From Methyloprofundus sedimenti (GTDB lineage Bacteria; Pseudomonadota; Gammaproteobacteria; Methylococcales; Methylomonadaceae), in NCBI RefSeq assembly GCF_002072955.1, contig NZ_LPUF01000001.1, forward strand, positions 2,626,896 to 2,690,895: a stretch of DNA of 64,000 nt. The letters run 5' to 3'. The position numbers and the translations under genes are program-made. The notes below the pieces were generated by a model, which was not told where the DNA came from, did not search any database, and worked only from the letters and a program-made list of their open reading frames with translations. Below, in pieces: positions 10,342 to 38,151 of the stretch. The first letter of the stretch is position 1. Each line of letters begins with the position of its first letter.

Positions 10342-10886
10342 TGGCTATGTCACCGTAAAGTATGGAATTTCATATAACAAGAGCGTATAAGTAAATAAAG
10401 CCCATGTAAATTAAGGAGATAGTTATGAAAGCCCCAGAGTTTTTAGAGTTCATTTCCGAAATAAATCAACTTGACCACCATCAACGCACTGTTCTAACGA
10501 AAGCACTGGATCAACTAGAGGACGAACCTAAGGTTTTTGATTTAATTGAAACAATATTTGATAGCAAAGGTAAATGCCCTCATTGCTCCCATACCGAAAG
10601 CCACAGGCATGGAATAAAAGATGGCCTTCAGCGCTACCGCTGTAAAGCCTGCAAAAAGACATTTAATGCTTTGACAGGGAACGCCTCTTGCTCATCTACG
10701 CCTCAAGTCAAAGTGGCTTGATTACTTAGGAGCTATCGCAGAATCATTGACTGTCCGGCAGGCAGCTAAAGAAATTAATGTGCATCGAAATACAACCTTT
10801 CGATGGCGGCACCGTTTTTTAAGCTGGATTCAGCAGGATCGTCCCAGTGCTCTTCATGGCATTACAGAAGCTGATGAAACCTACTT

Positions 10887-11879
10887 AACCTGAGTTCGGG
10901 ATAAGAAAAGGTGGGCAGTCTTTTGAAAATCTGAAAAAATAGAAACAACCAAGAATTTATTTTTTCTAAGACTGCCCAATGCTAAGTTTAACCCGATTAT
11001 TTTGTGATGTAGATGATTTTTGTAAAACCTTTTTACCCCACTGGGAGAAAACCCAAATAGAAAACGGTGAAAAGAAAAGACGGAAAAAGCGTTGCATTAG
11101 CCCCAGTGAAATAATTACTTTGATTGTTTACTATCATCAGTCAGGGTATGACACATTTAAATGGTTTTATTTACGCTACTTGCCCAAAAACTTATCTAAA
11201 GCTTTCCCAAAGGTGCCGAGTTATAACCGTTTCATTGAATTATTGCCCGATATTATCGGTCCTTTAACGGCTTTTATGCAAACACGTTGTGGCCGAAGTG
11301 AAGGTATTGCATTTGTTGATTCAACACCCCTTTGCGTTTGTAAAAATATTCGTATTCCGCGCCATAAAACTTTCAAAGATGTGGCCCAACGAGGCAAGTC
11401 TTCTACGGGCTGGTTCTATGGGTTTAAATTACACATTATTGTGGATGATCGAGGGGAAATACTTTCTTTTTCAATCACGAAAGGGAATGTTGATGACCGT
11501 AAACCCGTACCAAAATTGGCTAAAAATCTGATTGGAAAGCTTTTTGGCGATAGAGGATATATTTCTAAAAAACTCACTGAACTTTTAGCAACCGATGATG
11601 TTGAGTTAATCACAACTCTCAAGAAAAATATGAAACCACGAGTCATAGCTGCTTTTGATGCACTTTTATTGAGAAAGCGTAGCATTATTGAAACTATCAA
11701 TGATCAACTTAAAAATATTTTTCAGCTTGAGCACTCTAGACATCGTTCGCTTACGAATTATATGATCAATATTGTTGCTTGTTTAGTTGCTTATTCTTAC
11801 CAGGAAAAAAAGCCTGCACTCAACTTACGTAGAGAAGATTTATTACCTTTGTTATGACGTCTTATCCCGAACTCAGGTT
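10887..11879. mobile_element. IS982-family insertion sequence inside copy A
   Basis: A 993-bp element bounded by perfect 20-bp inverted repeats, AACCTGAGTTCGGGATAAGA at 10887-10906 and its complement at 11860-11879. ACTT is duplicated on both sides (10883-10886 and 11880-11883); removing one copy plus the element restores the sequence of IS copy B exactly. The intact ends and ORF suggest it moved recently, after copy A had inserted. Confidence 0.92.
10979..11857 (+). CDS. IS982 family transposase
   Basis: 292 residues with the IS982 pattern: FCDVDDFCKTF near the start, then KKRCISPSEIITLIVYYHQS and GYDTFKWFYLRYLP. The DDE catalytic core follows: AFVDSTPLCVCKN (first Asp), GFKLHIIVDDRGEI, LFGDRGYISKKL (second Asp) and the C-terminal RSIIETINDQLKNIFQLEHSRHRS (Glu). 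Length is normal for the family (about 290-300). No frameshift is visible, so this transposase should be functional. Confidence 0.9.
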   Translation: MLSLTRLFCDVDDFCKTFLPHWEKTQIENGEKKRRKKRCISPSEIITLIVYYHQSGYDTFKWFYLRYLPKNLSKAFPKVPSYNRFIELLPDIIGPLTAFMQTRCGRSEGIAFVDSTPLCVCKNIRIPRHKTFKDVAQRGKSSTGWFYGFKLHIIVDDRGEILSFSITKGNVDDRKPVPKLAKNLIGKLFGDRGYISKKLTELLATDDVELITTLKKNMKPRVIAAFDALLLRKRSIIETINDQLKNIFQLEHSRHRSLTNYMINIVACLVAYSYQEKKPALNLRREDLLPLL

Positions 11880-12452
11880 ACTTACTTGAGTCACATAAAG
11901 GAGAACGCCATCTCAATCGTCAACCAAGGAAACGAGGGGGCTGTGCGACTAAGCGAGGGATTTCTGATGAGCAAATTTGCATTTTAATTGCTCGTGATCG
12001 CTCAAAACAAACCGTAGATTTTGTGACAGGTAATGGCCCAATAAGCAAAATTGTTCTTGATACGCATTTAAAGCCAATACTAGACCAGGATGCCCTCCTT
12101 GTGAGTGATGGCAATCCAACTTATGGTGCATTTTGTAAAGCTGAAAAAGTATCTCATGAAATCGTTAACATGAGTCAAGGGCAGCGGGTGACTAAAGGGG
12201 CCTATCATATACAAAATGTCAATGCATACCACCACCGTTTTAAATCATGGCTAGACCGCTTTCATGGTGTAGCCACCAAGTATTTACCTAATTATTTGGC
12301 TTGGTGCAGAATTATGGATCGGAACCACAATCTAACCCCTGAGCAATTGTTACATTCTGCTCTGGGTGATTTTCAATACTTAACGGTGACATAGCCTTTA
12401 TAATTGACTCATCAGCTTATCAACCGGGAATTGGCTAACAAAACCTAAAAGG

Positions 12453-25905: not shown

Positions 25906-26319
25906 TCAGACATGGAGCCAGTTTTCCACTGTTAAATTTTTAACCCGCCTAAATTCACGCTCATTTACCGTGATAACGGTTAGACCTAAAGATTGAGCAT
26001 GAGCCGCAATCAATAAATCATGCTGGCCAATGATTAAACCCCGTTTTTCAAGATCAACCCGAATAGCGGCATAAACCTCATCAACCGACGCTTCTAATGC
26101 CAAGATGGGTAAACTGTTTAAAACCTGCTCAACATTGAATGATAATTTAGCGGATTGTTTTTTAGCTGCACCATAGCGTAACTCACACGCCACGATAATA
26201 CTGGTACAACACTCATTTTCCACACCCAATACGTTGATTTTTTCTGCAACCCTACCCGCCGGGTTCTTAATTAACTCAGAAAGAATATTGGTATCCAGCA
26301 AATAACGATACTCAGCCAT
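25906..26319 (-). CDS. vapC: VapC-type PIN-domain toxin
   Basis: 137 residues. PIN-domain ribonuclease acids are visible: LLDTNILSELIKN (Asp9 and Glu14), a middle acid in SVDEVYAAI, and GQHDLLIAAHAQSLGLTVITVNEREFRRV (the D..IAA.A...G...V..N..EF pattern). VapC toxins cut tRNA or rRNA in translation. The ATG overlaps the vapB stop (TGATG), the usual antitoxin-first order. Length is normal. Confidence 0.88.
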   Translation of the reverse strand: MAEYRYLLDTNILSELIKNPAGRVAEKINVLGVENECCTSIIVACELRYGAAKKQSAKLSFNVEQVLNSLPILALEASVDEVYAAIRVDLEKRGLIIGQHDLLIAAHAQSLGLTVITVNEREFRRVKNLTVENWLHV

Positions 26320-26555
26320 CAGAAAATATCTTCAGGTTCTATGGGTAAATCAATAAACTCAGGAAAATCTTCATCAACAGGGGATAAAGTCGCTAACATG
26401 GCAGTTAAGCTTTTTTTCCTGACGGGCTCAATAATTAACTTATCCCCCTCTTTATGAATAATGGCTTCTGTGCCCTCTAATTCAAATTCTTTGGGAATCC
26501 GTATGGCCTGATTACGCCCATTTCTAAATAAACTAACGTGTCGTTCACTGTGCAT
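26319..26555 (-). CDS. vapB: VapB-type antitoxin
   Basis: 78 residues with an AbrB-like N-terminal DNA-binding beta-hairpin: VSLFRNGRNQAIRIPKEF, then EGTEAIIHKEGDKLIIEPV. An acidic, Pro-rich C-terminal tail (VDEDFPEFIDLPIEPEDIF) would wrap the toxin active site. It normally represses its own operon. Overlaps vapC by one base. No other toxin-antitoxin pair is seen next to it. Confidence 0.85.
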   Translation of the reverse strand: MHSERHVSLFRNGRNQAIRIPKEFELEGTEAIIHKEGDKLIIEPVRKKSLTAMLATLSPVDEDFPEFIDLPIEPEDIF

Positions 26556-28493: not shown

Positions 28494-28645
28494 CAATGTG
28501 AATATACGCTATGAACCGGGGGCATGAACGGATGCCTCCTGGTGCATGAGACTAAAAAAGCATGATTGCAAGACATGAGCGTGTGCGATGTTTTAGTTTT
28601 CAATTGTTAAAAAATAACCTGAATTCGCAATTCAATTCGGGACTT
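28494..28645. repeat. left inverted boundary repeat of the 28.6-33.2 kb segment
   Basis: About 150 bp whose reverse complement recurs at 33192-33338. Shared blocks are CAATGTGAATAT, CGCTATGAACCGGGGGCATG, ATGCCTCCTGGTGCATGAGA, GCATGATTGCAAGA and TTGTTAAAAAATAACC. Inside, GGGGGCAT and ATGCCTCC can pair. This copy has a five-base extra near its inner end (CAATTCAATTCGGGAC). No ORF of interest. Confidence 0.85.
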
Positions 28646-28746
28646 GAACATCCCTCTGGAATTTGCAAGCTATTTTTCCTATCTGCTGGAGATAATACAT
28701 CGGTATGGATTTATACAGCCCTGAATCAATTAAATATTTTAAGCTC

Positions 28747-29223
28747 TTATTCGTCTTTTTTTATCCAGTCGTTTATTACCTTTGCTTGTTCATTATCAAG
28801 TAATTCAGCAAATGCACCTTGTTTAAACCCATCTCTATTAAAATCTAGGAGGTTCGGGAACTTGACACCAGATTCTAAGATTTTGTGTTTTGCAACTGAT
28901 GCAGATATTTTCGGAAAAAATGTAGCAATTATGTTTCCAAAAACAACTTTAACTTGAAAGCCATTGTATTCTCCCCCAGAGGCATCCTTTAACATTTTTA
29001 CCGATGTAACTTGAACTTTATACTTGAACCACGATTGTGGTTTATCATCAGACTTACCACATATGATTAAATAATCGTTAACATCAACTAAGTCAAAGTC
29101 TGCGGCTAATTTTGTTTTGTTTTGATAATATAAAGGATGAGAATATACAACAGGTACCCCTTCATATTCTTCAACTGTTTTAACACATTGATTATGTGGA
29201 GCATAAATTAAGAATGTATTCAT
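28747..29223 (-). CDS. uncharacterised protein, third gene of the UDG-like operon
   Basis: 158 residues, no signal peptide or membrane helix. It begins MNTFLIYAPHNQCVKTVEEY, has beta-rich blocks (VVYSHPLYYQNKT, DYLIICGKSDDKP, WFKYKVQVTSVKML) and ends in a helical tail, FAELLDNEQAKVINDWIKK. The opening resembles small EVE/PUA-like nucleic-acid-binding folds in layout only; I cannot name a family. It follows the UDG-like gene by 52 bases on the same strand, so it is probably co-transcribed and may be its partner. Confidence 0.6.
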   Translation of the reverse strand: MNTFLIYAPHNQCVKTVEEYEGVPVVYSHPLYYQNKTKLAADFDLVDVNDYLIICGKSDDKPQSWFKYKVQVTSVKMLKDASGGEYNGFQVKVVFGNIIATFFPKISASVAKHKILESGVKFPNLLDFNRDGFKQGAFAELLDNEQAKVINDWIKKDE

Positions 29224-29275: not shown

Positions 29276-30337
29276 TTACATATTTTGTAAAAAAATACCT
29301 ATATCTGAAAAATATTGGTTTGTAACCCCATGTGCAGCGGGATGGTTCATAATTAAATATTTAGTTTCCGTGTTATTCGCATAAAAGAACTTTCCTAAAT
29401 GGGTATTAGATAACTGTAAATCTTGGCCTGCTATTTTTTTCCAGTAATCCACATAACTCATCCCATAAAATATAACTATCTCTGGTTGATGCACTTTTAT
29501 TCGCTCTTTTAGATGCGCAATCCGTCGATCAACATTACTCAGTGTATATAACTCTCGAGACTTCAAAGTTTCAATATTAGAATATTTTCCATATAGCCAA
29601 GATGCTGCCGATGGTGATGGCAAAGGAAGTAGCTCTATAAGGCAGTGGTCACTGTTATGTCGAGCTAATTTATCTCTTTGATAAAGCTTACAGGCTTCAA
29701 GATCCGCATTTTTTCCTTGGTATGTAAGTAATATTCGGATTAATTGTTTCCAGGTATTCTGGAACTTTGGCTGTTGCCTAAAATACTCATCTACCTGGAT
29801 TCCCGTGTGGAATAAGTAAATATCTTCTAATTCCGGTTTTAAGTGATGATTCCAAGTGTTGAGTCTGTTTTGAATTTCTAGCAATGAACTTCCACCACCT
29901 TCTTCCATGCCAATAAACCAGATATCTCCCTCATAATTACCATAACCGTAAAAAGATTCAATATATTTAGCCAGTAAAATATTATCGAGTTTATCTTCAA
30001 GTGTTGTAAAAGGAACTTGTTTAGGTTTCTCAGTATTTATATCTTCTTGTTCACTATCAGAGTTAACAGTTTTACATATCCGAAAAAAATTAAGTCTATC
30101 TTGTGTTGAAGAAGCTATTTCATAGCAATGCTTCAACTTAATAGCAACATCGTAATTGTTACCATTAATCTGATATTTAGCATTCTGTTTGGCTAAATAT
30201 TTCTTATGAGAAACCAGGCTTGAATCTTTTCCTTTGACTCCTCCCCAGTGATGTATAGATTGAAAATGTGTATTAGTGAACCCCTGACTTTCAAGCTTTT
30301 CTAGAAGATCAAGTGTGTTTTGTGGTGAAACTTCCAT
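29276..30337 (-). CDS. uracil-DNA-glycosylase-fold protein with extra N-terminal domain
   Basis: 353 residues. The C-terminal two thirds carry a UDG-like pattern: IWFIGMEEGGGSS (139-151, in the place of the G.xPG water-activating loop), ELLPLPSPSAASW (235-247), EIVIFYGMSYVDYW (286-299) and LIMNHPAAHG (328-337, in the place of the HPS/HPSP DNA-intercalation loop). The N-terminal part (about 8-80) has SIHHWGG...HKKYLAK...NYDVAIKLKH, shared with the 135-residue protein upstream. No signal peptide. Base excision or another nucleic-acid activity is inference; the motifs are divergent. Confidence 0.55.
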   Translation of the reverse strand: MEVSPQNTLDLLEKLESQGFTNTHFQSIHHWGGVKGKDSSLVSHKKYLAKQNAKYQINGNNYDVAIKLKHCYEIASSTQDRLNFFRICKTVNSDSEQEDINTEKPKQVPFTTLEDKLDNILLAKYIESFYGYGNYEGDIWFIGMEEGGGSSLLEIQNRLNTWNHHLKPELEDIYLFHTGIQVDEYFRQQPKFQNTWKQLIRILLTYQGKNADLEACKLYQRDKLARHNSDHCLIELLPLPSPSAASWLYGKYSNIETLKSRELYTLSNVDRRIAHLKERIKVHQPEIVIFYGMSYVDYWKKIAGQDLQLSNTHLGKFFYANNTETKYLIMNHPAAHGVTNQYFSDIGIFLQNM

Positions 30338-30381: not shown

Positions 30382-30789
30382 TTAAAAGAAAGGGTACTTT
30401 TCAGTGGTTTGTTTAATGGCTTGGTGTAAACCTATATCATCTAGAATTAAGGAGTCCAGCTGATGGATTCGTTGAGCAACAATATAATTTTGACTATTAG
30501 ACTGATATGCACTTATTTTTTTCAAATAACTCATGTGCGCTTTCACTGATGCTTTACTTCCAAAGTGATGAAGTAATGAAAATGTTTTGTTATCCAAATT
30601 TAAACGGTTCATTTCTTCAATGGTATTTTCAGGTTTTAAAAATTCTTCACTAAGTCTTTGCTCTTTGAGTTTATCAACTAACGAACGAACTTTATCTACA
30701 TCATCTTTATGAATTAGAAAGGTCGTGGATTTAAAGCCCATTCCACTCATTTTATTAAGATACTTTTGGACGGCTTCTATATTTGACAT
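30382..30789 (-). CDS. small protein sharing the N-terminal domain of the UDG-like protein
   Basis: 135 residues, soluble. Residues about 70-115 read LLHHFGSKASVKAHMSYLKK then SQNYIVAQRIHQLDSLIL, matching the neighbour's SIHHWGG...HKKYLAK...NNYDVAIKLKHCYEIA: shared HH[FW]G, H..YL.K, Q.N..NY.VA and a final helix. The opening YLNKMSGMGFKSTTF also resembles the neighbour's LLEKLESQGFTNTHF, with an extra charged helix inserted between. First gene of the operon, 44 bases upstream of the UDG-like gene. A regulatory or adaptor role is inference; no known family recognised. Confidence 0.6.
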   Translation of the reverse strand: MSNIEAVQKYLNKMSGMGFKSTTFLIHKDDVDKVRSLVDKLKEQRLSEEFLKPENTIEEMNRLNLDNKTFSLLHHFGSKASVKAHMSYLKKISAYQSNSQNYIVAQRIHQLDSLILDDIGLHQAIKQTTEKYPFF

Positions 30790-31275
30790 CTACTTAACTA
30801 TTAAAATTTATTGTGTATGTTAAGGTGCATTTTAGTGATTTTGTTAATTTAGTCAACAATTAATTTTAACTGCGAAGTTGGTTGATTGATATTTTTTGAG
30901 TAGAGTTTATATACTTGAGGACAAATAACAGCTATTTATTGAGCACGTATTGACTATAAATTACTCAATAATGTATCGTTAGGGCTCATGGAATTTAGCA
31001 TTGAGGGAGCCAATCAATTTAAATTTTCTCTAGTGTCTTGTCTGGTTGATCGTAAGCGAACGTTCGGCTCGAGAATAATTGAGTTTAGTTATTGAGATGT
31101 TAAACTGTCAGTTCATTACCAAAAGTAGTATCAGGGTGAAATTGAAAGCCCAATAGCCAGGAAAAACCGTGGCTTGAATGGGGCACAAGCTATTTGAAAC
31201 CTCTATTGCATATTTCAATCCTGATTTTAACAACATTGTATCGACACTCCAGATAAATGATCATAGGATATAATT
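30790..31275. other. intergenic region between divergent genes
   Basis: AT-rich spacer separating the reverse-strand UDG-like operon from the forward exported-protein gene. It should hold both promoters. I see no clear palindrome or ORF. Confidence 0.4.
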
Positions 31276-33191: not shown

Positions 33192-33338
33192 GGTCCCGAA
33201 TTGCGAATTCTGGTTATTTTTTAACAATTGAAAAACTAGAATATCGCACACGCTCAGCTCTTGCAATCATGCTTTTATAGTCTCATGCACCAGGAGGCAT
33301 TTGTTCATGCCCCCGGTTCATAGCGAATATTCACATTG
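33192..33338. repeat. right inverted boundary repeat of the 28.6-33.2 kb segment
   Basis: Reverse-complement copy of 28494-28645, starting GGTCCCGAATTGCGAATTC and ending CGAATATTCACATTG. Identity by eye is about 90 percent. It ends only 14 bases from the stop of the SoxYZ-like gene, so the insertion border abuts core genes. Confidence 0.85.
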
Positions 33339-34206: not shown

Positions 34207-34854
34207 TTAATGATTGACCATGCCAGACAATAACGCAATATGGGTAAGTTCTGCAACTGTTTGCACATTTAATTTTTTCTTTATCTGTGTACTATAATTT
34301 GCAATGGTTTTATAACTCAAGCACAGTTCTGCAGAAATTTTATGTGCAGTTTTACCTTTGGCTAACAATATAAAAATATCGAACTCTCTACTGGATAAGG
34401 TATCTATTATCATTTGATGATCAACGGGCACTGTATTATTTTCCTCAGTCATGCTTTGGCTTAAAGCCTCTTCGATATAGGTCCCTCCATTGAAAATATG
34501 CTGTATGGCATCAATTAATATATCAGCGGCACTGTTTTTACTAATAAACCCTTTTGCCCCGGCCTTGATAGCCTGATTAATAAATACCTGCTCATTATGG
34601 ACACTGAATACCAGAATTCTGGCGTCACTATCCCGTGCACAAATCCGACGAATAGCCTCAAGGCCTCCAATCCCCGGCATGGAAATATCCATTACCATAA
34701 TATCAGGTTGTCTGGTTTTATATAATTGCATGGCTTCCTCGCCGCGCTCAGCTTCGGCAACTACCTCAATCTGATCATAGGTTGCCAATAACATTTTAAA
34801 CCCGGCTCGCACGACAGCATGATCATCAACCAGAATTACTTTAATTTTCTTCAT
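34207..34854 (-). CDS. NarL/FixJ-family response regulator
   Basis: 215 residues. The receiver domain has the acidic pair DDH (10-12), phospho-acceptor Asp56 in DIMVMDISMPG, and the conserved Lys in AKGFISKN. The C-terminal LuxR-type helix-turn-helix begins LSSREFDIFILLAKGKTAHKI and continues LSYKTIANYSTQIKKKLNV. Overlaps the kinase gene by four bases, so it was coupled to it. Probably controls the quinoprotein relay or other C1 genes; targets are unknown. With its kinase interrupted, its signal input is in doubt. Confidence 0.9.
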   Translation of the reverse strand: MKKIKVILVDDHAVVRAGFKMLLATYDQIEVVAEAERGEEAMQLYKTRQPDIMVMDISMPGIGGLEAIRRICARDSDARILVFSVHNEQVFINQAIKAGAKGFISKNSAADILIDAIQHIFNGGTYIEEALSQSMTEENNTVPVDHQMIIDTLSSREFDIFILLAKGKTAHKISAELCLSYKTIANYSTQIKKKLNVQTVAELTHIALLSGMVNH

Positions 34855-35999
34855 AGCGGGATTATTGCCATTATTGTCATTCCTTGCTGTGCGTATGAAT
34901 TAATCTTTAGTTCCCCTCCGAGCGTTGTAACTCTCTCTTGCATCCCACGTAAACCAAAGCCTGATTTTATACTTTCCATATCACACCCCTGACCGTCATC
35001 CTTTACGCTTAAATAGACACTATTATTTTCAATGCTGAGCTCGATAGCAACATGCCGTGCATTAGCATGGCGTACAATATTTGTCAGACATTCCTGTATA
35101 ACTCGAAACAAATGAATGGTAACGTCCTGTTGCAAAACATCAACCCTATCAGAGCATTCGACTGATACACTGATATTCGGGTTCCTGCTCTGCCATTGCT
35201 TAAGCATATTATCTAACGCGGCTTTTAAGCCAAGCTCAGTTAATATCAATGGATGTAGTTGATGCATCATCGTGCGTACAACCTGCATTAAATGATCACA
35301 GATTTCTGATATCGATTGAGTTATTTTCAGCGTGTCAGATTTTGGATGCCTTGCAGTGACCGCCATTACTTTAATAGCGGTCAGTGATTGCCCTAATTCA
35401 TCATGCAACTCTTGCGCAAGATGTTGTCGCTCCTTTTCCTGAATATTCAACAGGTGTTTTGTTAACGCGCTATTTTCCTGCTGGGCGAGTCTTAGCTCAG
35501 CTGTCATATGATTTATTGCATTGGCAATACTGTCGTATTCCAGCGTATTAAATTCAGGTAATTGATATTTATAATTACCTTTTTCAATGGCCTGTAGTCC
35601 ATCAACAATTTGCTCTATAGATTTTAGCGAGCGGTTAAATGCCAGATTTACAGTAATAAATGCCAGTATGGTAAATAACACAAAAGACAGAAAAAACACT
35701 ATCGTTTCTTGCCAGACTTCGGTAATTTCATCCAGTGGATTCGCTTGAATAGTTAATATACTCTGCTGATCATCAGCGCTGGTAAAGGGATATTCAGTGT
35801 GCGAATAAGAGCCACTTACTAATTTTATAAACCACCCAGGAGGTATATCCTGAGGTTGATCCAGAGCATTATCTCTGACCAGACTAATCACCTTGCCAGA
35901 AGGTTTTTTTAACTGGATATTTAAATGTCGTATAGCGTTAAGTGCGGTGAGTTGCTTGATCCAGTCCCGATTATTCCAGCTTTGCGCAGTATTGTTTTT

Positions 36000-37055
36000 G
36001 GCTATGTCACCGTAAAGTATGGAATTTCATATAACAAGAGCGTATAAGTAAATAAAGCCCATGTAAATTAAGGAGATAGTTATGAAAGCCCCAGAGTTTT
36101 TAGAGTTCATTTCCGAAATAAATCAACTTGACCACCATCAACGCACTGTTCTAACGAAAGCACTGGATCAACTAGAGGACGAACCTAAGGTTTTTGATTT
36201 AATTGAAACAATATTTGATAGCAAAGGTAAATGCCCTCATTGCTCCCATACCGAAAGCCACAGGCATGGAATAAAAGATGGCCTTCAGCGCTACCGCTGT
36301 AAAGCCTGCAAAAAGACATTTAATGCTTTGACAGGAACGCCTCTTGCTCATCTACGCCTCAAGTCAAAGTGGCTTGATTACTTAGGAGCTATCGCAGAAT
36401 CATTGACTGTCCGGCAGGCAGCTAAAGAAATTAATGTGCATCGAAATACAACCTTTCGATGGCGGCACCGTTTTTTAAGCTGGATTCAGCAGGATCGTCC
36501 CAGTGCTCTTCATGGCATTACAGAAGCTGATGAAACCTACTTACTTGAGTCACATAAAGGAGAACGCCATCTCAATCGTCAACCAAGGAAACGAGGGGGC
36601 TGTGCGACTAAGCGAGGGATTTCTGATGAGCAAATGTGCATTTTAATTGCTCGTGATCGCTCAAAACAAACCGTAGATTTTGTGACAGGTAATGGCCCAA
36701 TAAGCAAAATTGTTCTTGATACGCATTTAAAGCCAATACTAGACCAGGATGCCCTCCTTGTGAGTGATGGCAATCCAACTTATGGTGCATTTTGTAAAGC
36801 TGAAAAAGTATCTCATGAAATCGTTAACATGAGTCAAGGGCAGCGGGTGACTAAAGGGGCCTATCATATACAAAATGTCAATGCATACCACCACCGTTTT
36901 AAATCATGGCTAGACCGCTTTCATGGTGTAGCCACCAAGTATTTACCTAATTATTTGGCTTGGTGCAGAATTATGGATCGGAACCACAATCTAACCCCTG
37001 AGCAATTGTTACATTCTGCTCTGGGTGATTTTCAATACTTAACGGTGACATAGCC
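36000..37055. mobile_element. IS1595-type element, copy B (intact)
   Basis: 1056 bp, starting GGCTATGTCACCGTAAAGTA and ending in the imperfect inverse. TTGTTTTT flanks both sides (35992-35999 and 37056-37063), an 8-bp target duplication. Nearly identical to copy A, with only two differences found outside the nested IS. The copy and duplication look fresh. Confidence 0.93.
36082..37053 (+). CDS. ISXO2-like (IS1595 family) transposase
   Basis: 323 residues. N-terminal zinc ribbon CPHCSH...YRCKACKKTFNALTGTPL (about 51-90), a helix-turn-helix (SLTVRQAAKEINVHRNTTFRWRHRF, split in two helices), and a DDE domain: GITEADETYLLESHKG, DALLVSDGNPTYG and AYHIQNVNAYHHRFKSWL, with the HHRFK..L..FHGVATKYLPNYLAW end typical of the group. 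Full length and open, presumably active. The stop codon lies inside the terminal repeat. Confidence 0.93.
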   Translation: MKAPEFLEFISEINQLDHHQRTVLTKALDQLEDEPKVFDLIETIFDSKGKCPHCSHTESHRHGIKDGLQRYRCKACKKTFNALTGTPLAHLRLKSKWLDYLGAIAESLTVRQAAKEINVHRNTTFRWRHRFLSWIQQDRPSALHGITEADETYLLESHKGERHLNRQPRKRGGCATKRGISDEQMCILIARDRSKQTVDFVTGNGPISKIVLDTHLKPILDQDALLVSDGNPTYGAFCKAEKVSHEIVNMSQGQRVTKGAYHIQNVNAYHHRFKSWLDRFHGVATKYLPNYLAWCRIMDRNHNLTPEQLLHSALGDFQYLTVT

Positions 37056-37239
37056 TTGTTTTTATAACTAAATTCAAAAAGCTGGACAGCCAGTTTAACG
37101 GAAGAGGCAACTTCATTGTTAATGGCGTTACGTGCATGCCAGATAGAAATTGAACCACCCAGCAGCAGGATGCAAATAGCCGATATAAAAATCCTTAGAT
37201 TTATTTGATAACGTAAACTCTTGCTGAATTTTTGCTGTT

Positions 37240-38151
37240 TTAATCTTCCCATTCTAGTTCAGCATAGGCGCTACTAAGATTTTTCTTATGAAAATCATTG
37301 AATAATTGCCATTGTTTTTTATCCGGGTAACTCACTTTTTGCAGAACATCTTCCAGATAAACCCCCTGCTTAATTTTGCTACGAATAACACTTGCCAAAA
37401 ATTGCAGATATCGCTTTTCTGGTTGCATACTTTCTGGCCAGTCACGCACGATAGGGCCATGCCCAGGGATAACAACATCAAACTGGCGCTTTTCAAGTTT
37501 ATCTATTTCAGTCAGCCAGCCTTTCAAACTTCCATCTAACACGGGCAAGTGACCGACAAATAATAAATCCGACAACCAGAGAGTATTGGTTTTTTGATCT
37601 AATACACTCAAATCATTATCAGTATGGGCAGTAGGATGTGCAGTAAGCGTTAATAATCGTCCTCCTAGATCCAGTTCCAAAGTGTTCGCAACCGTAATAG
37701 TTGGAGCAATAATATCTTTTTCAGTCAGCTCGATACCAATTTGCTCTTTAGAACGCGCAATGTAAAAAGGCCCTCTTTCAGCCATTGCTCTGGCCAGCTT
37801 TTTATGACCGATAAATTTTATATTGGCTATATTTTTGAACGCACTATTTCCAAATATATGATCGGGATGAACATGGGTATTTATCACATAACAAACCGGT
37901 ACCCTGGTGATTTTTTTTATGCTCTGTTTTAATTGCCTCCCTTGCGCTGGCGTTCCGCCGCTATCAATGACAGCCACACAACTACCACCAACTATAAAGC
38001 CTATATTGGCAATCTCATCATGGTTATGTATATCGGGTAGCTCTACCAGCCCTTGATGGACGTAAATACCTTGCGCAACCTGCTTGATATTAAAAGCAGC
38101 CCAGACAGGAATTGAACATAAAAATATAATTATCAATAAGGCATAGCGCAC
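37240..38151 (-). CDS. quinoprotein relay system zinc metallohydrolase (MBL fold)
   Basis: 303 residues with a signal peptide (MRYALLIIIFLCSIPVWA). Metallo-beta-lactamase metal ligands: INTHVHPDHIFGN (HxHxDH), LTAHPTAHTDNDLSV, LSDLLFVGHLPVLDGS and VIPGHGPIV. This is the SoxH-related group associated with PQQ dehydrogenases, as in the named quinoprotein relay metallohydrolases; it acts in the periplasm. First gene of the kinase-regulator-carrier run, overlapping the kinase start. The LysR gene lies just upstream (27-base gap) on the same strand. Confidence 0.87.
   Translation of the reverse strand: MRYALLIIIFLCSIPVWAAFNIKQVAQGIYVHQGLVELPDIHNHDEIANIGFIVGGSCVAVIDSGGTPAQGRQLKQSIKKITRVPVCYVINTHVHPDHIFGNSAFKNIANIKFIGHKKLARAMAERGPFYIARSKEQIGIELTEKDIIAPTITVANTLELDLGGRLLTLTAHPTAHTDNDLSVLDQKTNTLWLSDLLFVGHLPVLDGSLKGWLTEIDKLEKRQFDVVIPGHGPIVRDWPESMQPEKRYLQFLASVIRSKIKQGVYLEDVLQKVSYPDKKQWQLFNDFHKKNLSSAYAELEWED

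Follow-up and report, generated by a model that had tools for sequence, protein, structure and literature searches.

A divergent uracil-DNA-glycosylase-superfamily protein with a recurring N-terminal module in an accessory operon of Methyloprofundus sedimenti

The window, which is the whole 64,000-nucleotide stretch of Methyloprofundus sedimenti DNA analysed here, from positions 2,626,896-2,690,895 of contig 1, has a 353-aa gene (29276-30337, minus strand) that joins a domain of the uracil-DNA glycosylase (UDG) superfamily to an N-terminal module. The two halves have homologues on different proteins. The placement of residues ~110-353 in the UDG superfamily is well supported by structure models and sequence comparison, and the family they define is supported as a divergent branch of its own. 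The gene is part of an accessory operon. The favored reading, given a probability of about 0.5, is that the protein may be an accessory glycosylase that acts on a modified base and probably protects against phages. We found no paper on this family, which is described nowhere in the literature searched.

The UDG-superfamily domain and its active site

The open reading frame starts with ATG, has GAGG ahead of the start codon, and agrees exactly in coordinates with the one given in the initial annotation. Residues 110-351 share ~40% identity with 249-aa stand-alone proteins encoded by two genomes of Cyclobacterium, which belongs to another phylum; therefore, the reading frame is not a product of chance. 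The four strings that had been quoted from the translation are all present, namely IWFIGMEEGGG (residues 139-149), ELLPLPSPSA (235-244), VIFYG (288-292) and MNHPAAHG (330-337).

The UDG-superfamily domain (residues 110-353; 29279-30010, minus strand) is defined by alignments, fold searches and a weak Pfam UDG match. The C-terminal half of the protein has a score of 17-18 bits (E 0.003-0.006), which is under the Pfam gathering cut-off of 24.3 bits, whereas the distant homologue L016 scores 26.1 bits across the whole profile and makes the homology detectable. NCBIfam also gives a weak signal from the C-terminal half, with no model exceeding its cut-off. Weak Pfam matches to an avirulence protein, DUF4417 and DUF6942 are below the cut-off and were set aside. 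A PDB sequence search with the protein and the family profiles matched no UDG, which fold comparison alone did, and a profile-profile comparison with the family-4-like UDGs of the same genomes was not significant.

AlphaFold2 models based on small alignments have moderate confidence, with a mean pLDDT of 68 (67.9 for the full length; 68.0 with a pTM of 0.73 for the domain alone) and a span of 44-68 over five models. Both models have the UDG-type alpha/beta fold. Foldseek ranks UDG-superfamily structures first for the full-length model (best E 0.01, prob 0.99) and for the domain-only model (E 8.9e-4, prob 1.00), the E-values being modest in both cases; human TDG, E. coli MUG, a family-4 UDG and UdgX come ahead of unrelated chains. 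In VIA, all 50 among the matches listed are UDG-superfamily structures for both models. The best match is TDG/MUG, with a Z of 8.8 for the full length and 9.1 for the domain over ~155 residues at 3.8-3.9 A, but matches within 1 Z are tied, so the nearest UDG family is undecidable from the fold search. The matches cover residues 114-353, close to the range of about 120-350 that had been expected from the letters alone. The fold searches together with the Pfam score of L016 make the superfamily membership secure, even though each model is only moderately confident.

In the domain model, core strands 139-143, 231-235 and 326-330 are each followed by one of the three motif loops, the arrangement seen in UDGs. 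Motif 1, GMEEGGG (residues 143-149; 29891-29911, minus strand), comes after the first of these and has a polar third residue (G-M-E). Glu235, the first residue of ELLPLPSP (residues 235-242; 29612-29635, minus strand), is at the end of the second core strand. His332-Pro333 of HPAAHG (residues 332-337; 29327-29344, minus strand) follows the last one, at the position of UDG motif 2. The initial annotation recognized this order and also proposed a UDG-like spacing; the order stands, but the spacing does not. The Gly of motif 1 and the Glu of strand 2 are 92 residues apart, compared with 41 in the Sulfolobus tokodaii UDG (G41 to N82), which indicates an insertion of ~50 residues. It was right that HPAAHG replaces HPSP and that the catalytic loop is unlike those of the named families, since GMEEGGG is none of GQDPYH, GINPG, GMNPG, GE(A/G)PG and GEQPG and does not fit motif 1 of families 1-6 or UdgX. 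With the fold search and the placement of loops after core strands in its favor, the earlier UDG-fold reading is borne out, while its interpretation as a whole is partly supported.

The known families each share part of this picture. TDG and MUG (family 2) resemble the protein most in fold but have GINPG with a water-positioning Asn in place of GMEEG, and the sequence identity is ~14%. Family 4 UDGs and UdgX share the fold match, the weak Pfam and NCBIfam signal and the His-Pro of motif 2, whereas the protein has no GE(A/G/Q)PG and carries the ~50-residue insertion ahead of strand 2. It also has no cysteine cluster at the positions seen in the family-4-like proteins of the genome. SMUG1 (family 3) is also a fold match, with a catalytic third motif-1 residue (N85) and a His in motif 2 (H239), but has GMNPG rather than GMEEG and reads the base with Asn163 (PMC13230825), the putative base reader here being Glu235.

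The alignment of 11 family members gives the signature FxGYG...WFxGMEEG...ELxPLPSP...HPxxxG. FxGYG and WF(I/V/L)G are common to the family, and the motif-1 Gly, Arg272 and Pro333 are found in 11/11 members. The third residue of motif 1 (Glu145) is acidic in all of them (Glu in 10/11, Asp in 1/11). Position 196 is W or Y in 10/11. The column of Glu235 has Glu in 8/11, Asn in 2/11 and Pro in 1/11, and both members with Asn are among the three most distant. His332 is kept in 5/7 of the closest members and is not universal.

Water is positioned by Asp64 in UNG and by Asn140 in TDG, and Glu145 would position or activate it in a similar way. In UDGs, the water is activated by the residue at position 3 of motif 1, which is an Asp in family 1 and an Asn in family 2 (PMC5387724), so Glu145 is likely its equivalent. 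His332 would stabilize the leaving base, and the aromatic residue at 196 would stack on the base. Asn80 of the Thermus thermophilus UDG is a bidentate base reader (PMC5387724), and the base-reading Asn lies at the end of strand 2 in this enzyme, in the S. tokodaii UDG (N82 in its sequence) and in SMUG1 (N163; PMC13230825). Given the topology and the Asn of two distant homologues, Glu235 appears to occupy the place of this residue and would read the Watson-Crick edge of the base. An acid in place of Asn would favor a base with an exocyclic amino group over uracil, so the family may prefer an amino-bearing base, perhaps one derived from cytosine.

This arrangement has parallels in two phage-defence glycosylases, Brig1 (PMC11078745) and Brig3 (PMC13160076), compared here by description. 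Both remove cytosine derivatives, have an origin among uracil-DNA glycosylases according to their authors and are found in accessory or defence loci. Both have an acid in the pocket at or near the position of the base-reading Asn, as predicted for Glu235. It is E147 in Brig1, at a position where "this residue is often asparagine", and the essential D127 in Brig3. Brig3 is also encoded with an operon partner gene. In contrast to the protein described here, it has a single domain without an N-terminal module, its pocket is lined by Asn50-Pro51-Ser52 instead of Gly-Met-Glu-Glu-Gly, and its partner BapA is a sugar hydrolase.

The operon and its N-terminal module

The operon consists of three closely spaced minus-strand genes with the glycosylase-like gene in the middle. 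The upstream gene (30382-30789, minus strand) encodes 135 aa and is separated from it by 44 bp. The downstream gene (28747-29223, minus strand) encodes 158 aa and lies 52 bp behind it. No recognizable family was found for either partner. A sigma-70-like promoter candidate ahead of the three genes (30829-30856, minus strand) matches the consensus at 10/12 positions, and such matches are hardly commoner in this region than in shuffled sequence. A terminator scan found no terminator.

The N-terminal module (residues 1 to ~97; 30048-30337, minus strand) is predicted to be helical from the secondary structure of the AlphaFold2 model. The initial annotation described an added domain of 80 residues; the domain is real, but it is longer and is a recurring module rather than a mere extension. 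Residues 1-97 have 43-45% identity to the N-termini of two proteins of 237 and 251 aa in gammaproteobacterial assemblies of the same order (L004:3359-4072 and L005:1468-2223), whose C-terminal halves differ. When searched against the whole genome, the module profile matches only the glycosylase-like gene and the 135-aa gene directly upstream (E 5e-8). The second copy, at residues ~56-113 of the upstream protein, is also found by hhalign (probability 96%, E 2.5e-9). Therefore, the N-terminal domain is a module that occurs twice in the operon. It is probably a docking or recruitment module for a partner protein. No known family was found for the module; matches of its profile to nsp8 look like noise from helical composition and were rejected. 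The L004 gene is located between a gene with a NERD nuclease domain and a PIF1 helicase, with a methylase upstream that reads as HsdM-like. A GIY-YIG nuclease was considered by eye for the C-termini of the L004 and L005 proteins (KFGKA...NLSNRR...Y), but Pfam gave no support.

The operon is accessory, as had been proposed. None of 17 congeners has it, and neither do 43 other genomes of the same family or order, in which only the N-terminal module turned up. The synteny with congeners begins sharply at ~33352 with a soxYZ-like gene. The GC content of the operon is 32-34%, compared with 39% for the window. An inverted repeat of 140 bp (93%) encloses the operon and two further genes; its left arm is at 28494-28633 (plus strand) and its right arm at 33198-33338 (minus strand), right before the congener synteny starts. 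Rfam and tRNA scans gave no matches, so no tRNA integration site is seen.

Relatives and possible function

Searches with the family profiles across 1,968 genome slots reveal a scattered distribution. The family is present in 1/369 genomes of its own class, Gammaproteobacteria, this being the M. sedimenti genome itself, and in 3/398 genomes of Pseudomonadota. In Bacteroidota, the phylum of Cyclobacterium, it is present in 6/395 genomes, and the figures for the orders of Cyclobacterium and of the member L053 are 2/177 and 1/177. One member (L017) is on a contig from a viral collection. No relatives were found on PLSDB plasmids or INPHARED phages, and a match in L006 (E 0.007) was judged to be due to chance. 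In a tree of the 11 members, the 353-aa protein pairs with a Bacteroidota sequence (support 97/94). The scattered distribution and a nearest sampled relative from Bacteroidota make horizontal transfer likely, and the gene was probably acquired in this way.

Several relatives have defence-type neighbors. The L017 gene lies among a type II restriction enzyme (E 1e-42), an SNF2 helicase, a serine recombinase and a gene that reads as cytosine-methylase-like. L048 has an HKD-Snf2 helicase and a type IIG enzyme, L049 is next to a WYL regulator and L054 has two DUF262/GmrSD-like genes nearby. Around the 353-aa gene, the only gene of this type is a VapBC-like pair 2.2 kb beyond the operon; no other known defence gene is in the window, and PADLOC gave no match to the protein. 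At 4/9 loci of the family (L002/L003, L045, L047 and L054), another, different UDG-fold gene lies within ~4 kb. This is far more often than would be expected if a genome has about five of these genes (rough P ~1e-5, calculated post hoc, with two of the four below curated cut-offs). The authors of the Brig1 study also show other DNA glycosylases in the neighborhoods of Brig1 homologues (PMC11078745). The second UDG genes at three of these loci are L054:12370-12999, L045:7998-8678 (near the solved structure 5h0j, E 3e-49) and L047:14205-14927.

The neighborhoods of the relatives and the active-site parallels with Brig1 and Brig3 make a phage-defence role plausible. The protein would be a UDG-superfamily member with monofunctional DNA glycosylase activity, acquired horizontally within a small accessory operon. 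In foreign (phage) DNA, it would flip out a non-canonical base and hydrolyze the glycosidic bond, and the resulting abasic sites would block replication. The module-bearing upstream protein would probably guide the enzyme to its target or hold it back. The R.PabI base-excision restriction enzymes work by the same principle of restriction through base excision but have a different fold, HALFPIPE (PMC10273834). A more specific proposal, which is possible but can only be put forward tentatively, is an undescribed anti-phage system in which the helical module would be an interchangeable adaptor on different effectors, the upstream module protein would link the effector to a trigger, and the glycosylase would read a modified phage base through Glu rather than Asn.

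A role in DNA repair would also fit the UDG fold. The L053 homologue follows uvrB at a distance of 283 bp, with both genes on one strand, and the Cyclobacterium homologues have a gene for an SRAP (abasic-site binding) protein 2.1 kb upstream (L002:5199-5903) and a hypoxanthine-glycosylase-like gene 1.3 kb downstream (L002:10015-10557). However, the spread of the family is extremely patchy and excludes all sampled congeners, several relatives are found among restriction genes, and the likely base-reading position is acidic instead of Asn. The genome also has five other UDG-superfamily matches over the cut-off, UNG included, so this protein is dispensable for basic uracil repair. Repair is unlikely to be its function.

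It is quite unlikely that the domain binds DNA or modified nucleotides without excision, as a sensor or as a UdgX-like DNA coupler. Motif 1 is without the Pro of GxxPG, motif 2 is HPAAHG, and some distant members lose His332 and Glu235, all of which would suit such a binder. UdgX structures are also among the fold matches, and UdgX is an example of a UDG fold turned into a cross-linker (PMC10359453). The close subfamily, on the other hand, retains the acid, Glu235, the aromatic residue at 196 and mostly His332, and so looks like it has a working active site. One close member (L012) even has GMEPG, in which the Pro is restored and which is one step short of the canonical GxxPG. A toxin-antitoxin or abortive unit, in which the glycosylase would attack host DNA once freed from the upstream module protein, has a lower probability still. 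The shared module would be a sensible pairing of inhibitor and effector, and the VapBC-like pair is close by, but the close stand-alone homologues have neither the module nor such a partner, which indicates that the enzyme domain needs no cognate inhibitor.

To our knowledge, few DNA glycosylases defend bacteria against phages. If the anti-phage reading is correct, the class of defence glycosylases would grow by a distinct UDG branch that has an acid at the base-reading position, is transferred between genomes and often lies near restriction genes. The family could supply glycosylases for modified bases, and it would imply that glycosylases can be built into modular defence operons. In a defence-prediction study (PMC13092281), a UDG domain is named in a legend on predicted systems with not-yet-validated domains.

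Repeats and mobile elements near the operon

The DNA around the operon has further repeats. A sequence of ~37 bp (~28641-28678) adjoining the inverted repeat recurs at at least 10 places in the genome. Three more pairs of direct repeats of 110-170 bp (92-95%) are intergenic and to the left of the operon (25688-25857/28203-28373, 26976-27087/28085-28196 and 27117-27229/28383-28493), forming a mosaic of duplicated intergenic blocks. The VapBC-like pair (25906-26555) consists of a PIN-domain protein (Pfam E 3e-18) and, by reading only, a 78-aa AbrB-like protein that overlaps its start.

In one congener (L041, G001:C14), the soxYZ-like gene beside the site of the operon is split by a 4.4-kb insertion, so insertions may be frequent at this site. 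A sensor histidine kinase gene, with pieces at 34851-35891 and 36971-37252, seems to be broken up by an IS1595-family (ISXO2-like) element at 35999-37057. Another copy of this element, at 10342-12398, is 99.5-99.8% identical and is itself split by ~1 kb.
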